From: Inconstantimicrobium porci
GTDB lineage: Bacteria; Bacillota; Clostridia; Clostridiales; Clostridiaceae
DNA length: 64,000 bases
NCBI RefSeq assembly: GCF_009696465.1
Contig: NZ_VULX01000013.1
Location: 1 to 64,000 of the forward strand
Reading direction: 5' to 3'
The notes under the pieces were generated by a model. The model was given only the letters and a program-made list of their open reading frames with translations, made no database searches and had not been told where the DNA came from. Position 1 is the stretch's first letter; every line of letters starts with the position of its first letter. This document shows, piece after piece, positions 2,808 through 59,190 of the stretch. Position numbers and translations under genes: made by a program.

Positions 2808-2942
2808 TAATTTATAATTTAAAATTTATAATGTATAATTGTGGATTAAACTCCGCTAAAGCGGAGTTCCAAAAAGAAGGCTACGCCCTCTTTAAAATAC
2901 CTAATTATATAGAGGTTTGGATGCAAAGCCTCCATTAAAATA
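2808..2942. repeat. Heptamer-armed intergenic element, copy H1
   Basis: Five tandem heptamers (2808-2842; words TAATTTA and TAATGTA) lead into the AACTCCGC/GCGGAGTT hairpin (2849-2868). Two further hairpins follow: one around AAGAAGG/CCCTCTTT (about 2873-2894) and GAGG/CCTC (2911-2933). There is no right-hand heptamer arm; a second repeat family (2948-3134) directly follows. With the next entries this fills the 444-bp gap between ilvE and the gene ending at 3208. A short reading frame crossing the region is not supported as a gene. Confidence 0.75.
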
Positions 2943-2947
2943 AAAAA

Positions 2948-3134
2948 GGGTGAAAGACATATTCCGAAGCCTCCGTCGTTCCCTGCGGTCTCTCCAAGTC
3001 GTTTCTTCATATGTCTTTCACCCCTTGATGACTAAAGGACGAAATTGCATTCTACCATTCTTTTACACAAACGTGTAAACCCTTTATTATCAAAACTTTA
3101 TGTTATTAAAAATTGCAGTTTTTGAATGCAATTT
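2948..3134. repeat. CTCCAAGTCGTTTCT hairpin repeat, copy B1
   Basis: A perfect outer stem joins GGGTGAAAGACATAT (2948-2962) to ATATGTCTTTCACCC (3009-3023), enclosing the family core CTCCAAGTCGTTTCTTCATATGT. A second stem pairs GAAATTGCATTC with GAATGCAATTTC (about 3040-3134), and inside it is an extra TTTACAC/GTGTAAA hairpin. Copies B2 (47829-47952) and B3 (62122-62311) share the core but have different outer-stem sequences. Confidence 0.75.
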
Positions 3135-3143
3135 CCTATACAA

Positions 3144-3169
3144 TAAAAAAGAATCCCTGCCAGGGATTC
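3144..3169 (-). terminator. Terminator of the YjdF-like gene
   Basis: GAATCCCTG pairs with CAGGGATTC around a one-base loop. On the minus strand the stem is followed by TTTTTT, so it fits termination of the gene ending at 3208. Confidence 0.8.
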
Positions 3170-3172
3170 CTT

Positions 3173-3211
3173 CCTTCAATTCTAAATTTTAAAATCTAAA
3201 TTCCAAATTAT
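3173..3211. repeat. Heptamer array, copy H2 (solo arm)
   Basis: About five 7-base words (3177-3211), all variants of AAATTCT, run from the terminator up to and across the stop codon of the minus-strand gene at 3208. On the minus strand the words read GAATTTA-like and end in AAGG. The hairpin core of the family is absent. Confidence 0.5.
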
Positions 3212-5932: not shown

Positions 5933-6064
5933 GTTTAGGGATATGAGATTAGGGATTAGAGTAAAGGAGGAAACTTATTCGCTTATGCCTTGGCTTGAAA
6001 CTCCCAAAAGGAGTTTCATCCGATTCTCTTCTCTCTTAGTTCTTAACTCTAATCTACTCTATAA
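5933..6064. repeat. Heptamer-armed intergenic element, copy H4
   Basis: The left arm (5933-5967) has five 7-base words such as GATTAGG and GATTAGA. The core hairpin is GAAACTCC/GGAGTTTC (5997-6017), followed by ATCC. The right arm (6023-6064) has about six words and includes TCTAATC, the exact reverse complement of the left word GATTAGA. The rest of the 513-bp spacer (6065-6364) holds only a possible decayed coding segment described separately. Confidence 0.75.
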
Positions 6065-8107: not shown

Positions 8108-8268
8108 ATCAATGAATAGTGAATAGCGAACAACGAATAGAAAAGGATGAAACTCCTACAGGAGTTTCAAAAAAGAGGTTTGGAGGATTAGTCCTCCATT
8201 ATTTTAAATTCATAAGCGCAGCGATATGAATTTAAACCTTCATTTGGCACTTGGGATCTGGCATTATA
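8107..8268. repeat. Heptamer-armed intergenic element, copy H5 (mismatched arms)
   Basis: This is the most complete copy. It begins at the ytaF stop codon with about five 7-base words (8107-8141; GAATAGT-like). Hairpins follow in order: GAAACTCC/GGAGTTTC (8149-8168), GGAGG/CCTCC (8182-8197), and AAATTCAT/ATGAATTT with an AAGCGCAGCG loop (8206-8233). The right arm (8241-8268) has four words, CATTTGG and CACTTGG among them, that are not complementary to the left words. The end meets the next terminator. Confidence 0.8.
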
Positions 8269-8307
8269 AAAAGTGGACTTCCTAAATATTTAGGAAGTCC
8301 ACTTTTT
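8268..8307. terminator. Bidirectional terminator between ytaF and hsp20
   Basis: AAAAAGTGGACTTCCTAAA pairs perfectly with its complement around a short AT loop, with T-runs on both strands, between the convergent genes ending at 8107 and 8315. Confidence 0.9.
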
Positions 8308-9628: not shown

Positions 9629-9727
9629 GCACTCATCCCCTATTTTTATAATATTTACCCTACCTATATTATAGTCCAATCTTATTATACACCTAAAATT
9701 ATCTATATAAACCGAAACCTAACAACT

Positions 9728-9890
9728 AAGTCATAGGTCAAAAGTCACAGGTACAAGGTAAGGAAATAGGCTTTGCCTCCAAACCACTAAATTCTTGAAA
9801 CCTAGAGGTTTAGAGGTGCAACCTCCATTTTGAAACTCCATCAGAGTTTCATCCTTACTTTGTTCTTTCGACCTGTGACTTATTTAATTC
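9728..9890. repeat. Heptamer-armed intergenic element, copy H6
   Basis: The left arm (9728-9762) has five words such as AAGTCAC and AGGTCAA. The core has GAGG/CCTCC and GAAACTC/GAGTTTC (9832-9850) hairpins, followed by ATCC. The right arm (9857-9890) includes ACCTGTGACTT, the exact reverse complement of AAGTCACAGGT in the left arm. The word family is the same as in copy H10 (38234-38421), 28 kb away. Confidence 0.8.
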
Positions 9891-10924: not shown

Positions 10925-12835
10925 ATGTTTGAATTATCATTTAATAGTGTAAAAAAATATCTTGATGCAAAACTAATACTTCAAAATGTATCATTTAATA
11001 TATTTGATGGTGAAAAAGTCGGAATTGTAGGTATTAATGGATGTGGTAAAAGTACTATCTTAAAGCTTATGGCAGGTATACATACAATGACTAAAGATGA
11101 TAAAGGTCTTGTACTAATGCCAAGAGGTGCTACTGTTGCCTATCTAGAACAATCTCCTAGCTTTGATGGAGACCTGAAGGTTAAAGAAGTTCTAAATTTA
11201 GCATTTAAAAAAGCAGATGATATTGAGCTTGAGATGCGCACTATCGAAAATAAAATGAATACTTCTGTTTCAACAGAAGTAGATTCTCTTCTAAAAAAAT
11301 ATGCTAAGCTTCAAAGTGACTTTGAGGCAATTGGTGGATATGAAAAAGCTGAAAAATTAAGTAAAGTCTGCATAGGCCTTAATTTTTCAGAAAGTTTTCT
11401 TGAGAAGCAGTTTGACCTTTTAAGCGGAGGAGAAAAAACTACTGTAACCCTAGGTAAAATTCTTCTTGAAAATCCTGACATACTACTTCTTGATGAACCT
11501 ACTAACCATCTTGATATACAAGCAGTTGAATGGCTTGAAGAATATTTAAAAGCTTATAAGGGAATTGTCGTAGTTGTATCACATGATAGATACTTTCTTG
11601 ATAATGTGGTTAATAAAATTATTGAAATTGAAGATGGCGAGGCTACTACATATAAAGGTAACTATTCAAGTTTTACAAAACAGAAAGAAGAAAATATGCT
11701 TATACAGTTTGAGCAGTTTAAAGAGCAGCAAAAACAAATTAAGGCTATGGAAAATACAATTAAAACTCTTAGAGACTGGGCGCAGAGACCTGGCGCTGCT
11801 GGTGAAAAATTCTTTAAAAGAGCTGCTAGCATACAAAAACAGCTTGATAAAATTCAAAGAATACAAAAACCTAAATTCGATAAACCAAATATGAAGCTTG
11901 ATCTTAAAGAAGCCGAACGTTCTGGTAGCGAAGTAATTAAAATAAAGAACTTCTCTAAAAGATTTGACGACAAAGTCTTATTTGAGGACAGTAATCTTCT
12001 TGTTAAATTCAAGGAAAGAGCTGCACTTGTAGGTCCTAATGGTTGTGGAAAGACTACTCTTTTAAAAGTACTTCTTGGCGAAAAAACTGCTGATAAAGGT
12101 GAAGTAGTCCTTGGTGCCAGCGTAAAATATGCTTATCTTCCTCAAAACATCAAATTTGATGATGAAGAAGCTACTGTAGTTGATACATTTAGAAAAGATC
12201 TCTTCATGGGTGAAGGCGAAGCAAGACAATATCTTTCTAAATTCATGTTCTACGGAAGTGCTGTATTTAGAAAGGTTAAACAATTATCTGGCGGAGAAAG
12301 AATCAGGCTTAAATTAAGCAGGCTCCTTTATGATGACATTAACCTTCTAATTCTTGATGAACCTACAAACCACCTTGATATAGATTCTATTGAAAACTTA
12401 GAAGAGACTCTTGATAACTTCAACTGCACATTATTCTTCATATCTCATGACAGATATTTTATAAACAAGATTGCTACGACTATAATTGAAGCAGACAATC
12501 ATAAGCTTAAAAAATATAATGGCAATTATGATTACTTCAAGCATGAAAAAACAAAACTTCTTGCTGCTGCTAAAGAAGCCGATGCTCAAAAAGAAAAAGT
12601 GGTAAAACCAAAACAGGTGAAACAAAGAGACCCTCAGCCAAAGAAAAAGAATGTTTATAAAATCACTAAACTTGAAGAAAAAATTGAAGAGCTGGAAAAC
12701 ACTCTGAAACAAATAGAACAAGATATGGCAGAAAACAGTACAAACTATGACAAACTTAATGACCTGTACAAAACTAAAACAGACACAGAGTCAGAACTTG
12801 AATCTGCCATGACAGAATGGGAAGAACTACAGTAG
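10925..12835 (+). CDS. ABC-F family ATPase (ribosome-acting)
   Basis: The 636-residue protein has two ABC ATPase domains and no membrane segments. Domain 1 has Walker A GINGCGKST, signature LSGGEK and LLLDEPTNHLD; domain 2 (from about residue 333) has GPNGCGKTT, LSGGER and LILDEPTNHLD. A charged linker of about 90 residues (242-333) joins them and a coiled-coil tail (about 560-636) closes the protein, as in YdiF/Uup-like and resistance-type ABC-F proteins. ABC-F factors bind the ribosomal E site and either resolve stalled complexes or dislodge antibiotics. Which role applies cannot be decided here, but the attenuator-like leader favours an inducible ribosome-protection role. GGGGG precedes the ATG. 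Confidence 0.9.
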   Translation: MFELSFNSVKKYLDAKLILQNVSFNIFDGEKVGIVGINGCGKSTILKLMAGIHTMTKDDKGLVLMPRGATVAYLEQSPSFDGDLKVKEVLNLAFKKADDIELEMRTIENKMNTSVSTEVDSLLKKYAKLQSDFEAIGGYEKAEKLSKVCIGLNFSESFLEKQFDLLSGGEKTTVTLGKILLENPDILLLDEPTNHLDIQAVEWLEEYLKAYKGIVVVVSHDRYFLDNVVNKIIEIEDGEATTYKGNYSSFTKQKEENMLIQFEQFKEQQKQIKAMENTIKTLRDWAQRPGAAGEKFFKRAASIQKQLDKIQRIQKPKFDKPNMKLDLKEAERSGSEVIKIKNFSKRFDDKVLFEDSNLLVKFKERAALVGPNGCGKTTLLKVLLGEKTADKGEVVLGASVKYAYLPQNIKFDDEEATVVDTFRKDLFMGEGEARQYLSKFMFYGSAVFRKVKQLSGGERIRLKLSRLLYDDINLLILDEPTNHLDIDSIENLEETLDNFNCTLFFISHDRYFINKIATTIIEADNHKLKKYNGNYDYFKHEKTKLLAAAKEADAQKEKVVKPKQVKQRDPQPKKKNVYKITKLEEKIEELENTLKQIEQDMAENSTNYDKLNDLYKTKTDTESELESAMTEWEELQ

Positions 12836-12945
12836 TAATGTAGAATTTATAATTTAGGATTGAACTCCTTTACGGAATTCTAACTAATTCATAATCGAAC
12901 ATGCCAAATCGAAGATTTGGAGGCTCCACTTTCATTAAAATAAAA
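12836..12945. repeat. Heptamer-armed intergenic element, copy H7
   Basis: Four 7-base words (12836-12863; TAATGTA, GAATTTA and relatives) begin immediately after the ABC-F stop codon TAG, then lead to an ACTCC/GGA hairpin and a CCAAATC/GATTTGG hairpin with GGAGGCTCC (12904-12926). The right arm is represented by the short copy at 13007-13043. Confidence 0.65.
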
Positions 12946-12946
12946 A

Positions 12947-12971
12947 AATTAGCAGTTAAAAACCGCTAATT
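12947..12971 (-). terminator. Terminator of gdhA
   Basis: AATTAGC pairs with GCTAATT around an AGTT/AACC-containing loop. On the minus strand the stem is followed by a run of seven T. Confidence 0.7.
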
Positions 12972-13006
12972 CTCTTCTATCTCAACTAGTAAAAAGTTTC
13001 AAAGAA

Positions 13007-16520: not shown

Positions 16521-16617
16521 AGTTCTTATCTCCTGTAAAATTATTTTTATACTATATAGTCGGTTTTTTTCGAAAGAAATTTAGTATTTTTTTTAATAAT
16601 TATTTAGAAATGCTTTC

Positions 16618-16688
16618 AATTAATAAGCGCAGCGTAATTAATTTCATCCTTAATTGATCATTAATCACCGATTATTGATCATTGGATC
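16618..16688. repeat. Heptamer-armed intergenic element, copy H9
   Basis: The arm starts immediately after the polC stop on the minus strand and holds about five 7-base words (16652-16686; TATTGAT, CATTAAT). It ends in AAGGATG and continues into the AATTAAT/ATTAATT hairpin whose loop contains AAGCGCAGCG (16618-16645). The GAAACTCC module is missing. Confidence 0.7.
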
Positions 16689-38167: not shown

Positions 38168-38233
38168 AAGTAGAATTAAAGATCTATTTCGACTCCTCAA
38201 TTGTTAAAATTGAAGCTCATAAAAATAATATAA

Positions 38234-38421
38234 CAGGGCACAAGTCACAGGTCACAGATAATGACGAAACTTCCCTGTGGGCAGTTTCATAAAGAAAACA
38301 AAGCCTTATTCTGAATTTTCTTTTTAGTGGTTTGGAGGATATGCCTCCATTACTTAAAATCCATGAGCTTGCGAATAAATTTTCTCCTTTTCTGTGACCT
38401 GTGACCTATTACCTGTGTCCT
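38234..38421. repeat. Heptamer-armed intergenic element, copy H10 (matched arms)
   Basis: The left arm (38234-38261) has four 7-base words including CAAGTCA and CAGGTCA. Core hairpins are GAAACT/AGTTTC, GGAGG/CCTCC (38335-38347) and AAATCCATG...AATAAATTT. The right arm (38387-38421) has five words: CTTTTCT, GTGACCT twice, ATTACCT, GTGTCCT. Right-arm words are reverse complements of the left type (AGGTCAC). The remaining gap, 38168-38233 and 38422-38487, is AT-rich and featureless. Confidence 0.85.
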
Positions 38422-42079: not shown

Positions 42080-42156
42080 TGGCGACTCAGAAGGGACTTG
42101 AACCCACGACATCCAGCGTGACAGGCTGGCACTCTAACCAACTGAGCTACTGAGCC
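42080..42156 (-). tRNA. tRNA-Asp (GTC), copy 1
   Basis: Complete cloverleaf with anticodon GTC and encoded CCA end. It is the last tRNA of the operon and identical in sequence to copies 2 and 3. Confidence 0.97.
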
Positions 42157-42161
42157 ACATA

Positions 42162-42237
42162 TGGTGGTCACAATAGGGCTCGAACCTATGACCCTCTGCT
42201 TGTAAGGCAGATGCTCTCCCAGCTGAGCTATGCGACC
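42162..42237 (-). tRNA. tRNA-Val (TAC), copy 1
   Basis: Complete cloverleaf with anticodon TAC and encoded CCA, between tRNA-Glu and tRNA-Asp with a 5-bp spacer to the latter. Confidence 0.97.
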
Positions 42238-42241
42238 GTAT

Positions 42242-42316
42242 TGGTGACTTCTAGGGGAATCGAACCCCTGTTACCACCGTGAAAGGGTGGTGTCTTAACC
42301 GCTTGACCAAGAAGCC
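42242..42316 (-). tRNA. tRNA-Glu (TTC), copy 1
   Basis: Complete cloverleaf with anticodon TTC and encoded CCA, upstream of tRNA-Val. Confidence 0.97.
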
Positions 42317-42348
42317 ATATTATTTTTTATTTTGTATTGTTTTTAAAA

Positions 42349-42424
42349 TGGAGCTGGCAATAGGACTTGAACCTACAACCTGCTGATTACAAGTCAGCTG
42401 CTCTACCAATTGAGCCATGCCAGC
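42349..42424 (-). tRNA. tRNA-Thr (TGT), copy 1
   Basis: Complete cloverleaf with anticodon TGT and encoded CCA, separated by a 32-bp spacer from tRNA-Glu. Confidence 0.97.
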
Positions 42425-42439
42425 AGTATTTTAAAAAAA

Positions 42440-42516
42440 TGGCGACTCAGAAGGGACTTGAACCCACGACATCCAGCGTGACAGGCTGGCACTCTAACCA
42501 ACTGAGCTACTGAGCC
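42440..42516 (-). tRNA. tRNA-Asp (GTC), copy 2
   Basis: Identical to copy 1 with a 360-bp offset; anticodon GTC, CCA encoded. Confidence 0.97.
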
Positions 42517-42521
42517 ACATA

Positions 42522-42597
42522 TGGTGGTCACAATAGGGCTCGAACCTATGACCCTCTGCTTGTAAGGCAGATGCTCTCCCAGCTGAGCTATGCGACC
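42522..42597 (-). tRNA. tRNA-Val (TAC), copy 2
   Basis: Identical to copy 1 with a 360-bp offset; anticodon TAC, CCA encoded. Confidence 0.97.
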
Positions 42598-42601
42598 GTA
42601 T

Positions 42602-42676
42602 TGGTGACTTCTAGGGGAATCGAACCCCTGTTACCACCGTGAAAGGGTGGTGTCTTAACCGCTTGACCAAGAAGCC
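42602..42676 (-). tRNA. tRNA-Glu (TTC), copy 2
   Basis: Identical to copy 1 with a 360-bp offset; anticodon TTC, CCA encoded. Confidence 0.97.
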
Positions 42677-42708
42677 ATATTATTTTTTATTTTGTATTGT
42701 TTTTAAAA

Positions 42709-42784
42709 TGGAGCTGGCAATAGGACTTGAACCTACAACCTGCTGATTACAAGTCAGCTGCTCTACCAATTGAGCCATGCCAGC
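42709..42784 (-). tRNA. tRNA-Thr (TGT), copy 2
   Basis: Identical to copy 1 with a 360-bp offset; anticodon TGT, CCA encoded. The third block has no Thr gene. Confidence 0.97.
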
Positions 42785-42799
42785 AGTATTTTAAAAAAA

Positions 42800-42876
42800 T
42801 GGCGACTCAGAAGGGACTTGAACCCACGACATCCAGCGTGACAGGCTGGCACTCTAACCAACTGAGCTACTGAGCC
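42800..42876 (-). tRNA. tRNA-Asp (GTC), copy 3
   Basis: Identical to copies 1 and 2; anticodon GTC, CCA encoded. Confidence 0.97.
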
Positions 42877-42881
42877 ACATA

Positions 42882-42957
42882 TGGTGGTCACAATAGGGCT
42901 CGAACCTATGACCCTCTGCTTGTAAGGCAGATGCTCTCCCAGCTGAGCTATGCGACC
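42882..42957 (-). tRNA. tRNA-Val (TAC), copy 3
   Basis: Same tRNA as copies 1 and 2; the flanking spacer towards tRNA-Glu differs slightly from the other blocks. Confidence 0.97.
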
Positions 42958-42961
42958 ATAA

Positions 42962-43036
42962 TGGTGACTTCTAGGGGAATCGAACCCCTGTTACCACCGT
43001 GAAAGGGTGGTGTCTTAACCGCTTGACCAAGAAGCC
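42962..43036 (-). tRNA. tRNA-Glu (TTC), copy 3
   Basis: First gene of the operon on the minus strand, 43 bases downstream of the promoter -10 box; anticodon TTC, CCA encoded. Confidence 0.97.
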
Positions 43037-43078
43037 ATATTGTTTTGTTTTTTCAAGTCTCCCGACCTGACATAGACT

Positions 43079-43849: not shown

Positions 43850-45097
43850 ATGATATATCATGACATAATAGTACTTGGCGGAGGCGCCTCAGGATTAATG
43901 GCAGCTATTACCGCGAAAGATTTTGGTGCAGATGTTGCAATAATTGAAGGAACTGATAGAGTTGGTAGAAAAATTTTAGCTACAGGAAATGGACGATGCA
44001 ATATTTCCAACTCCACTATAAAATTTCCTTTTAATCAATACCATAGTAATAATAAGAACTTTTTCAACTCTGTATTATCACAGTTTGGCGTAGAAGAAAC
44101 TAAAAACTTTTTCTATTCACTAGGGCTTCCTTTTGTTGAACTTCAAAATGGTAAACTTTATCCACAATCGCTGCAATCTTCATCTGTTGTGGATATTTTC
44201 AGATTTGCAATAGAAGATAGATGTATACCTGTGTATAACTCTTTTAAAGTTAAAAATATATCCACAACTAAGAAAGGTTTCATTTTATCCACAGTGGATA
44301 ATTCCAAAGAAGTTATCCACTGCACTAAACTTATCGTTGCCTGTGGAGGAAAAAGTGCAGTGAAAACAGGATCTGACGGTTCAGCTTACAATCTCTTAAA
44401 ATCTCTTGGTCACAATGTAACTCGTACATATCCTGCAATAGTTCAGTTAAAACTTGACTACGGCAGATTAAAAGCTATTTCTGGTGTTAAATTTGACGGA
44501 TATGCTTCTGTATTTGTGGATGATAAAGAAATTAGAAAAGAATTTGGCGAAATACTCTTCACAGATTACGGAATATCAGGTCCTCCAGTTCTGCAGATTT
44601 CAGCTATTGCTTCTTTAAACACTGAGCTTAATAAGAATGTGAAAATAAAAGTTGATATGATGCCTAAAATGACAGATGATGAATTGCAGTCATTCCTAGA
44701 AAATCACCTTGGAATGCTTTCTTATAGGCCTATATGCGATGCTCTGACAGGAATAATAAATAAGAAACTTATACCTGTTATACTTAAGGAAGCTGGCATT
44801 TATGATATTCATATACCATGTTATGAACTTTCATGGCAGCAGAAAAAATCCCTTATGTCATTGTTTAAAAACTGGTCTTTTAAATGCACAGGACCAAATG
44901 GCTTTAATAATGCCCAGGTAACGGCTGGTGGTATTGATACTAATGACATAGATGATAACACTCTTGAATCCAAAATAGTCCCTAATCTTTATTTCTGTGG
45001 CGAAATAATGGATGTTCACGGTGACTGCGGTGGATATAACCTTCAGTGGGCATGGAGTTCAGGATTTGCAGCAGGAAAAGCAGCAGCAAAAAATTAG
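43850..45097 (+). CDS. HI0933/BaiN-like FAD-dependent oxidoreductase
   Basis: From the ATG at 43850, ten bases after AAGGAGTG, the protein has 415 residues. It opens with a dinucleotide motif HDIIVLGGGASGLMAAITAKDFG, then GRKILATGNGRCNISN and GSDGSAYNLL in the HI0933-like fold, and ends with a second FAD contact, NLYFCGEIMDVHGDCGGYNLQWAWSSGFAAG. Members of this family act as flavin reductases or on unsaturated substrates (BaiN on bile acids), but the native substrate here is unknown. Confidence 0.9.
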   Translation: MIYHDIIVLGGGASGLMAAITAKDFGADVAIIEGTDRVGRKILATGNGRCNISNSTIKFPFNQYHSNNKNFFNSVLSQFGVEETKNFFYSLGLPFVELQNGKLYPQSLQSSSVVDIFRFAIEDRCIPVYNSFKVKNISTTKKGFILSTVDNSKEVIHCTKLIVACGGKSAVKTGSDGSAYNLLKSLGHNVTRTYPAIVQLKLDYGRLKAISGVKFDGYASVFVDDKEIRKEFGEILFTDYGISGPPVLQISAIASLNTELNKNVKIKVDMMPKMTDDELQSFLENHLGMLSYRPICDALTGIINKKLIPVILKEAGIYDIHIPCYELSWQQKKSLMSLFKNWSFKCTGPNGFNNAQVTAGGIDTNDIDDNTLESKIVPNLYFCGEIMDVHGDCGGYNLQWAWSSGFAAGKAAAKN

Positions 45098-45228
45098 ATA
45101 TGAGATAAGAACTAAGCGATAAAGAGATTTGAATATTTTTCCTCTATTAAAATTAGAAATTTATGCCTGCTTAACCGCAGCGCATAAATTTCATCCTGTT
45201 CTCTTCTCTCTGCTCTCATATCTCTAAT
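45098..45228. repeat. Heptamer-armed element filling a stop-to-stop spacer, copy H11
   Basis: The element occupies exactly the 131 bp between two convergent stop codons. The left arm starts directly after the TAG of the flavoprotein (45098-45125; ATATGAG, ATAAGAA and two more). The right arm ends at the TAG of the thioesterase (45197-45231; TTCTCTC, ATATCTC and others); its revcomp contains ATATGAG, identical to a left word. The core keeps the AAATTTATG...CATAAATTT hairpin with a CGCAGCG-containing loop, followed by CATCC. Confidence 0.85.
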
Positions 45229-45969
45229 CTATTTTTCTTTTTTCCACTCTGTTTCGCATAGTGCGAGTATTGTGTTTTCTTCGTTAAGTATTCTTGTCTT
45301 TACGACTATTTTTTCATCTTCATTTACGACTTTAGCTTCAACACATACTGTGTGTCCATATTGTACCTCTTTAATAAAGTTTACCTTTATTCTGCTCATC
45401 TTATATTTTAAGATTATATCTCTTGGTACTATTTCAAGTGCCCATTCCATATATTTTGTATTGTTAACGTGTCCGTTTGTATCTATATCACTATATCTTA
45501 CTGCAAATTGTTTAGACATTTCACTTTCAAACTTTTTATCAAGGTTATCAAGTTCAAAACTATCCTCTTCACATTTATAGATTGTTTTCATCGTTTCAGG
45601 AACTCTCATAGCTCTTCTCTTTTTAAGATCTAAAAGAAGGAATAATCCTCTTCCCTTAACTATGATATTTCCTTCTGCGTCTTTAATAAGATAATTTCTA
45701 TATGCATAGAACTTTCTCATTCCAAGTGCATCTGTACAAACAGTAAGCTTCTCTCCCAGCTTTGGATATCTTAAAACCTCTATGTCATACTTATAGAATA
45801 TCCATGCCATATTATCACTTATAAGCTTATTAAGGCCTAATCCTAACGCTTCTGACTGGTGAAAGCCTATATCACAGAAGAAATCAGCTATAGACGTTAA
45901 CTTTGCATCTCCCCTTGCATCTACATTATAGTAGTTAACGTCATATTCTTTTTCATATACTGCTCCCAT
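45229..45969 (-). CDS. Acyl-ACP thioesterase
   Basis: From the ATG at 45969 (GGAGG upstream) the protein has 246 residues with two hot-dog halves. EKEYDVNYYNVDARGDAKLTSIADFF starts the first and RYSDIDTNGHVNNTKYMEWALEIVP carries the conserved Asn/His of FatA/FatB-like bacterial thioesterases. The enzyme releases free fatty acids from acyl carrier protein. It lies downstream of the DUF1858 gene on the same strand. Confidence 0.85.
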   Translation of the reverse strand: MGAVYEKEYDVNYYNVDARGDAKLTSIADFFCDIGFHQSEALGLGLNKLISDNMAWIFYKYDIEVLRYPKLGEKLTVCTDALGMRKFYAYRNYLIKDAEGNIIVKGRGLFLLLDLKKRRAMRVPETMKTIYKCEEDSFELDNLDKKFESEMSKQFAVRYSDIDTNGHVNNTKYMEWALEIVPRDIILKYKMSRIKVNFIKEVQYGHTVCVEAKVVNEDEKIVVKTRILNEENTILALCETEWKKEK

Positions 45970-58743: not shown

Positions 58744-58993
58744 TAAAACACACCTTTCATTTAATAATATTGGTTCATACATAATTACTTATTCAAGAAT
58801 CAAAGCAATTACTATTAGTATATATTATAATTTTTGCTAAGTGAAGAACATTTATTTTGAAACTTAACCACCTGTAATAGATGAAAAAAAATTTTTCTTC
58901 ATATATAATAAGTAGTAGTTTTTTACTTTAATAATAAGAAATAAAAGCTGATATATTCAATAAACTCAGCTGATTGAAATGAAATTCATTATT

Positions 58994-59190
58994 GAATGTA
59001 TAATGTATAATTTCGGATAAAACTTCGCTAAAGCACAGTTTTTATAAAAGTATAAGTAAATACATTTATCTTTAAAATATTTTTAATTCATTAATTCGGT
59101 AGCTTGAAGGTATCCTCCATTAAAATTTATAAATCCGCAAACGGATTTCATCCTTAATTATACATTACACAATATACATTCTACATTAAT
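58994..59190. repeat. Heptamer-armed intergenic element, copy H12
   Basis: The left arm has GAATGTA, TAATGTA and TAATTTC (58994-59014) leading to a degenerate AAAACTTCGC core. A GGTATCCTCC stretch (59109-59118) and AAATCCG/CGGATTT hairpin (59131-59147) with CATCC follow. The right arm (59156-59190) has five words, CATTACA and CATTCTA among them, the reverse complement of the TAATGTA type. The rest of the 470-bp gap is AT-rich; a TAAGTAGTAG run at about 58908 has no interpretation. Confidence 0.75.

Follow-up and report, generated by a model that had tools for sequence, protein, structure and literature searches.

Heptamer-armed inverted-repeat elements dispersed in intergenic gaps of Inconstantimicrobium porci and related Clostridiaceae

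Introduction

MITEs, Correia elements, ERIC, BOX and REP/REPIN sequences are short, non-coding, dispersed intergenic repeats of inverted-repeat or modular build without an enzyme of their own, and the family described here resembles them in all these respects. To our knowledge, none of them has arms of five degenerate heptamers whose words are locus-specific, or cores that are inverted at orthologous sites. No convincing target duplication was found in the present family.

Repeated 7-base words are known from other settings. Variable complementary heptamers build both sides of the P6b stem of cyanobacterial tRNA-Leu introns; that is one intron stem, whereas the present family is dispersed. The cyanobacterial STRR heptamers and the TAACTGA repeats are, like the arms described here, tandem 7-base words in intergenic DNA with a patchy distribution across phyla. 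TAACTGA arrays in Beggiatoaceae, Cyanobacteria and Bacteroidetes repeat one word in direct orientation, and only one inverted case has been reported (PMC4679880), whereas the present elements have two inverted arms of related, varying words around a structured core.

In invertons, too, a segment flips between inverted repeats; unlike invertons, the present family appears to lack a common recombination site, and the one copy scanned had no clear promoter. Small inversions in chloroplast genomes are a further case of spacer inversion between short inverted repeats. Template switching between imperfect inverted repeats homogenizes the arms and inverts the spacer (PMC8604942), and template switching creates and maintains stems (PMC8794818). 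The yeast cases share arm homogenization and inversion with the present family, but they are isolated, involve chance repeats and have spacers of a few bases (PMC8604942), whereas here a repeat family is involved at many loci, with a core of approximately 70-100 bases. A literature search, thin on subscription journals, returned no account of elements that combine inverted heptamer arms, exchangeable words and a core that flips.

Materials and Methods

The window is the whole stretch of 64,000 nt analyzed, on contig C5 of the focal genome (G000; Clostridiaceae, 3.2 Mb). A covariance model (R1) was built from 15 cores. Genome-wide copy numbers derive from 150 scored candidates and are lower bounds. 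For the arm analysis, 93 R1 matches were taken with their flanks. Orthologous loci were compared between Clostridium saudiense (G029) and Clostridium sp. 1001271B (G044), approximately 93% identical and each represented by one strain and a draft genome. Flanks paired 20 elements between the two, and each core was scored forward and reversed against the orthologous interval.

Results

The focal copy and its relatives in the window

A first-pass annotation had placed a modular element with heptamer arms at 38234-38421, and direct reading of the window shows this architecture. The left arm (38228-38262, plus strand; register from the alignment of 93 genomic copies) consists of five 7-base units, ATATAAC, AGGGCAC, AAGTCAC, AGGTCAC and AGATAAT. 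The outermost unit (ATATAAC) is decayed, and clear words span 38235-38262. The core (38262-38388, plus strand) matches model R1 with 56 bits (E 4e-13 in the window). It contains, on the plus strand, a decayed H1 hairpin (GAAACTTCC..GGCAGTTTC; 38266-38288, from sequence and folding), the H3 hairpin TGGAGG-ATATG-CCTCCA (38333-38349, from the sequence and the A1 and A4 alignments) and a degenerate H4 region with the loop AGCTTGCGAA (38358-38383, from alignment to the family). The right arm (38387-38421, minus strand) reads AGGACAC, AGGTAAT, AGGTCAC, AGGTCAC and AGAAAAG on the minus strand; its period of 7 was also returned by a tandem repeat finder, and its register again comes from the alignment of genomic copies.

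The annotation had listed nine spacers sharing this plan. Those at 2.8, 5.9, 8.1, 9.7, 12.8, 38.2, 45.1 and 59.0 kb were supported by the model, whereas the spacer at 16.6 kb holds only a half copy. The copy at 2809-3207 (plus strand) has a long composite core, with a left arm at 2809-2843, a core match at 2843-2966 and a right-type arm at approximately 3173-3207. An AGA-word-class copy lies at 5934-6056 (minus strand; H1 at 5997-6017, sequence and model match), and a second, without H1, at 45097-45231 (plus strand; sequence and model match, E 0.0018). The copy at 8111-8272 (plus strand) has chimeric arms, the left of class AGTGAAT and the right of class AATGCCA. Model R1 also matched an AGGTCAC-class copy at 9702-9888 (minus strand, 47.5 bits), a decayed copy at 12823-12978 (plus strand, 40.4 bits; left arm AATGTAG, AATTTAT, AATTTAG) and an AATGTAT-class copy at 58981-59187 (plus strand, 49.4 bits). 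The half copy (16606-16684, plus strand) comprises the H4 hairpin, CATCC and a right arm of class AATGATC, by direct reading and a weak model match (E 0.065).

Across copies, the core is assembled from H1 (GAAACTCC/GGAGTTTC), optional middle modules, H3 (GGAGG/CCTCC) and H4 (GAAATT..AATTTC). The GAAACTCC/GGAGTTTC hairpin, originally attributed to every copy, is present in exact form in only two copies of the window, and in the focal copy it is decayed. One middle module (GCCAAGGCATAAGCGAACATGCCAAATCAAAGATTTGG) recurs, being swapped into and out of cores and sometimes placed in tandem (L003, L012, L027, L030, L136 and L147). Elsewhere in the window, 42080-43053 holds approximately 2.7 tandem copies, 99% identical, of a 360-bp block of tRNA genes, with 11 tRNAs in all; this array is either a recent amplification of a tRNA cluster or an assembly feature.

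Heptamer arms

Both arms were strongly periodic. Left arms showed identities of 0.549, 0.509 and 0.488 at lags 7, 14 and 21, compared with approximately 0.34 in dinucleotide shuffles; the lag-7 z-score of 27 overstates independence because the copies are related, but the effect is still large. Right arms gave 0.533, 0.504 and 0.470 against the same approximate value of 0.34. No 7-base periodicity was found in flanks more than 100 bases out. On either side the periodicity breaks off abruptly after the fifth unit, and its register relative to the core is constant. Position by position, the unit is A (approximately 0.9), A/G, A/T, G/T, A/T, A (approximately 0.8) and not-C, giving the frame A-R-W-K-W-A-D; the constant GATGAAA/GATTAAA bordering the core agrees with it as a sixth unit.

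Approximately eight word classes were distinguished in the focal genome: AGATAAG, AATGTAT, AATTTAA, AGGTCAC, AATGATG, AGTGAAT/AATGCCA, AATGATC and AATTCAT. They behave as subfamilies; in a minority of elements the two arms differ in class. In one AGA-class element (C67:64975), left-type and right-type words have traded sides of the core. The 7-base period described in the annotation was thus borne out by its excess over shuffled sequence (0.55 vs. 0.34 at lag 7), as were the words that differ between loci, whereas its range of four to six words per arm became, in the alignment of genomic copies, typically five.

Two features were absent from that annotation: the arms of an element are mutually inverted, and they carry the same word class. 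At the variable positions, left arms agreed with their own right arms at 0.556 and with permuted arms at 0.383 (z 7.1). The mirrored unit was no better matched than its neighbors (0.541 vs. 0.569, 0.542 and 0.572). Inverted arms of approximately 35-42 bp with a common word class are terminal inverted repeats of the kind found in MITEs.

Copy number, distribution and genomic context

The pattern GAAACTCC-N(2,10)-GGAGTTTC had 43 exact sites in the focal genome and none for the reversed control, which confirms the further core copies that the annotation expected. Model R1 gave at least 145 matches there at E ≤ 0.01, a few of them representing one copy on both strands. The family thus comprises approximately 130-145 or more copies in the 3.2-Mb genome, dispersed and intergenic. 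In G001, the only genome of the same genus compared, R1 had no matches. G001 was rejected as a source of empty sites: its genes are approximately 80% identical, it has no model matches and its intergenic regions are not comparable.

When 84,980 species genomes were scanned for the exact core, armed relatives came up in C. saudiense, C. sp. 1001271B, C. cuniculi, C. sp. D43t1, C. gallinarum, C. polynesiense and C. sp. LS; their heptamer arms keep the same register. The matches in other phyla had no arms and appear fortuitous. With a short-core model, C. saudiense had at least 34 copies and C. sp. 1001271B at least 32; relatives occurred in at least 44 of 208 genomes of the family Clostridiaceae. 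On contig C1 of genome G150, eight short-core matches all had the same score; these may stem from a repeated locus, for example an rRNA operon, and not from the element.

When both neighboring genes could be called (71 copies, simple ORF rule), 43 pairs were co-directional, 21 convergent and 7 divergent. Most copies are thus placed at a gene 3′ end, and nearly all have a gene upstream of them. In C. saudiense they occupy nearly the whole gap from the stop codon to the next gene. Several copies (L132, L181, L190 and L159) have, to judge from their left flanks, a Rho-independent terminator or a stop codon immediately before them; insertion beside terminators may be preferred. Some copies (L023, L134, L152 and L155) have a motif near GATAAAYTRGAATTTRT approximately 5-22 bases outside one arm, on either side, which may reflect an insertion preference or the outer end of an element. 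A conserved motif near GATAAAYTRGAATTT was seen in outer flanks.

Orthologous loci

Of the 20 elements paired by their flanks between C. saudiense and C. sp. 1001271B, 19 could be oriented, and in four of these the core was inverted. Five extra sites were located by flanks; among them L316/L349 was inverted and L313/L350 collinear. The core was therefore inverted between collinear flanks at 5 of 21 informative loci, a count that omits L314/L105 (not orientable), L288/L347 and L302/L351 (too degraded) and L282/L354 (element absent in G044). At inverted loci, reverse scores were 70-112 and forward scores 36-44, with shuffled maxima of 38-45.

Arms also changed by whole words: 12 of 21 arm indels of at least 5 bases between the two species were 7, 14 or 21 bases long. 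Substitution was 0.12 in arms, 0.11 in the core and 0.07 in flanks, and the number of units per arm varies within C. saudiense. At one site shared by C. saudiense and C. cuniculi/D43t1, the flanks are 93% identical and the core is conserved in the same orientation, whereas the arms are of AGTGACA class in C. cuniculi/D43t1 and of AATTAAT class in C. saudiense, with a different number of units. The flanking genes look like pgk and tpi, to judge by their sequence.

Core hairpins and strand test

The core hairpins covary: double-changed cells numbered 224 compared with 59 in shuffles in one set, and 66 compared with 13 in the other. If the hairpins served as an RNA transcribed from one strand, G-U pairs should be admitted in them but A-C pairs should not. 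Pairs of G-T and A-C numbered 33 and 53 in short-core copies and 69 and 43 in the focal genome, where the model itself favors G-U. The lack of a consistent G-T excess, together with core flips relative to genes and the absence of a register preference in the arms, argues against selection on one transcribed strand; covariation without such an excess points to core pairing at the DNA level. Single strands folded strongly as DNA (z -4.6, -10.1 and -9.5). An Rfam scan of the window returned only tRNAs above the curated threshold and no match to the element; the annotation likewise had recognized no named family, and none was matched here.

Discussion

That a repeat-rewriting process acts on the arms is shown by the gain and loss of whole words, by the turnover of word class at a fixed site and by cores that are inverted in one species relative to another. 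The explanation that we favor, at about even confidence, is a mobile inverted repeat of MITE-like type, in which template switching between the arms during replication homogenizes, lengthens and flips them. The element is a non-coding unit of approximately 130-210 bp, with two arms of typically five degenerate heptamers around a core of two to four hairpins, and the family behaves as a non-autonomous MITE-like mobile repeat of gene-end intergenic gaps, its transposition and the enzyme responsible being presumed. During replication, the arms would pair in single-stranded DNA and the polymerase would switch template from one arm to the other. An in-register switch would bring the two arms into agreement and, if it ran all the way round the loop, would invert the core; a switch displaced by at least one word would insert or delete complete heptamers. 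Repeated switches could then produce concerted word turnover, such that the arms of one locus share a class while loci differ.

Taken together, core inversion, concerted words without register-specific pairing and covariation without a consistent G-T excess argue for DNA-level arm-to-arm copying. What we infer is that the polymerase switches template and that copies spread by transposition. Template switching alone would predict neither the shared frame (A1, R2, K4 and A6) nor the five units per arm of the focal genome; a recognition step, for example a binding or cutting protein, may set both frame and arm length. Against the favored explanation, a clean target duplication and a mobilizing enzyme were not found, and the inverted spacers in the literature are far shorter than the cores of this family.

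A classical MITE is a possible, although rather unlikely, account of the whole pattern. The six heptamers at each end would be iterons for a transposase supplied elsewhere, the period and fixed number of units would follow from protein binding, and core inversion would be an occasional by-product of recombination between terminal repeats. The arms are sharply bounded, of equal length and in register with the core at both ends, and a degenerate frame is shared by more than 100 dispersed copies in a genome whose genus-mate has none. The elements are also dispersed, multicopy, short and non-coding, as MITEs are. This account is at odds with the approximately eight word classes that coexist in one genome, with class changes at fixed sites and with the variable unit number in C. 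saudiense. No 3-12 bp direct repeat stood out as a reproducible target-site duplication, the only signal being a weak one of two bases, and no gene-containing or autonomous long copy occurred among the loci read. An IS200-type Y1 transposase was rejected as the mobilizer, since such genes do not track the element; by class, they were present in 8 of 10 element-rich genomes and in 5 of 10 poor genomes or fewer. The family did not qualify as a REPIN/RAYT system either, with no Y1 transposase match in the element-rich G044 and G016.

Dispersal, patchy species distribution and absence from a sister species fit a mobile miniature element. At L282/L354 the element is absent in G044, where the gap sequence is unalignable and offers no clean empty site, and a second site without the element, in the more distant G007, does not have clean boundaries. 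The element was present in both species at most orthologous loci, so movement must be slow. The annotation had left the choice between a mobile miniature element, a repeat-generating mechanism and a 3′ UTR RNA; the first two are supported by dispersal, patchy distribution, one sister-species absence and arm rewriting, and the third is disfavored.

A broader reading appears doubtful: a Bacillota-wide class of heptamer-armed elements with unrelated cores, whose arms would be written in 7-nucleotide steps by a dedicated process, each lineage repeating a single word throughout its two arms. Arrays of five perfect A-R-T-K-N-A-N units occurred in 34 species of many families among 399 Bacillota genomes, although the frame is not proved across Bacillota because the reversed control also matches where words are palindrome-like. 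Approximately 6-7 of 30 Bacillota arrays read had an inverted partner array within 400 bases, and their cores were unlike the Clostridium one. Heptamer arrays with inverted partners and unrelated cores were seen in other Bacillota families at L200, L201, L205, L210, L218 and L223. These sequence patterns suggest that the arm design is broader than the Clostridium-type family.

That the element is an inverton, in which a recombinase would act at the arms and downstream expression would switch as the core flips, is improbable. The same segment does occur in both orientations between fixed flanks, between species, at 5 of 21 orthologous loci. However, no common recombination site is apparent, because arm words and length differ by locus; the one copy scanned had no clear promoter or terminator excess, and the elements lie mostly at gene 3′ ends.

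We give equally little credence to a 3′ UTR or operon RNA, in which the arms would close a multi-hairpin structure controlling mRNA processing or stability. The position downstream of genes (7 of 71 divergent), the covarying hairpins and the strong folding of single strands would suit such an RNA, but there is no consistent G-T excess, the arms show no register preference, the core flips relative to genes and Rfam has no match. Covarying hairpins alone do not prove a functional RNA, because DNA-level arm conversion gives an equal signal. Plain replication slippage in AT-rich spacers, which would place unrelated heptamer arrays near hairpins by chance, is very improbable and already disfavored: heptanucleotide repeats are the commonest class of long simple repeats in many bacterial genomes and have been attributed to slippage with a 7-base polymerase footprint or contact length (Mrazek 2007, as cited in PMC4679880), but slippage does not account for inverted pairing, fixed core register, defined unit number and concordance of left and right words.

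Heptanucleotide repeats themselves are already known, and we file the element with the small mobile inverted repeats, as one with an unusual mutational life. Under template switching between arms, the family would be a natural system with many parallel loci in which arm homogenization, change in unit number and loop inversion can be counted together, and it would make hairpin template switching directly testable in bacteria. It may also explain why heptamer arrays of differing words recur in bacterial spacers.
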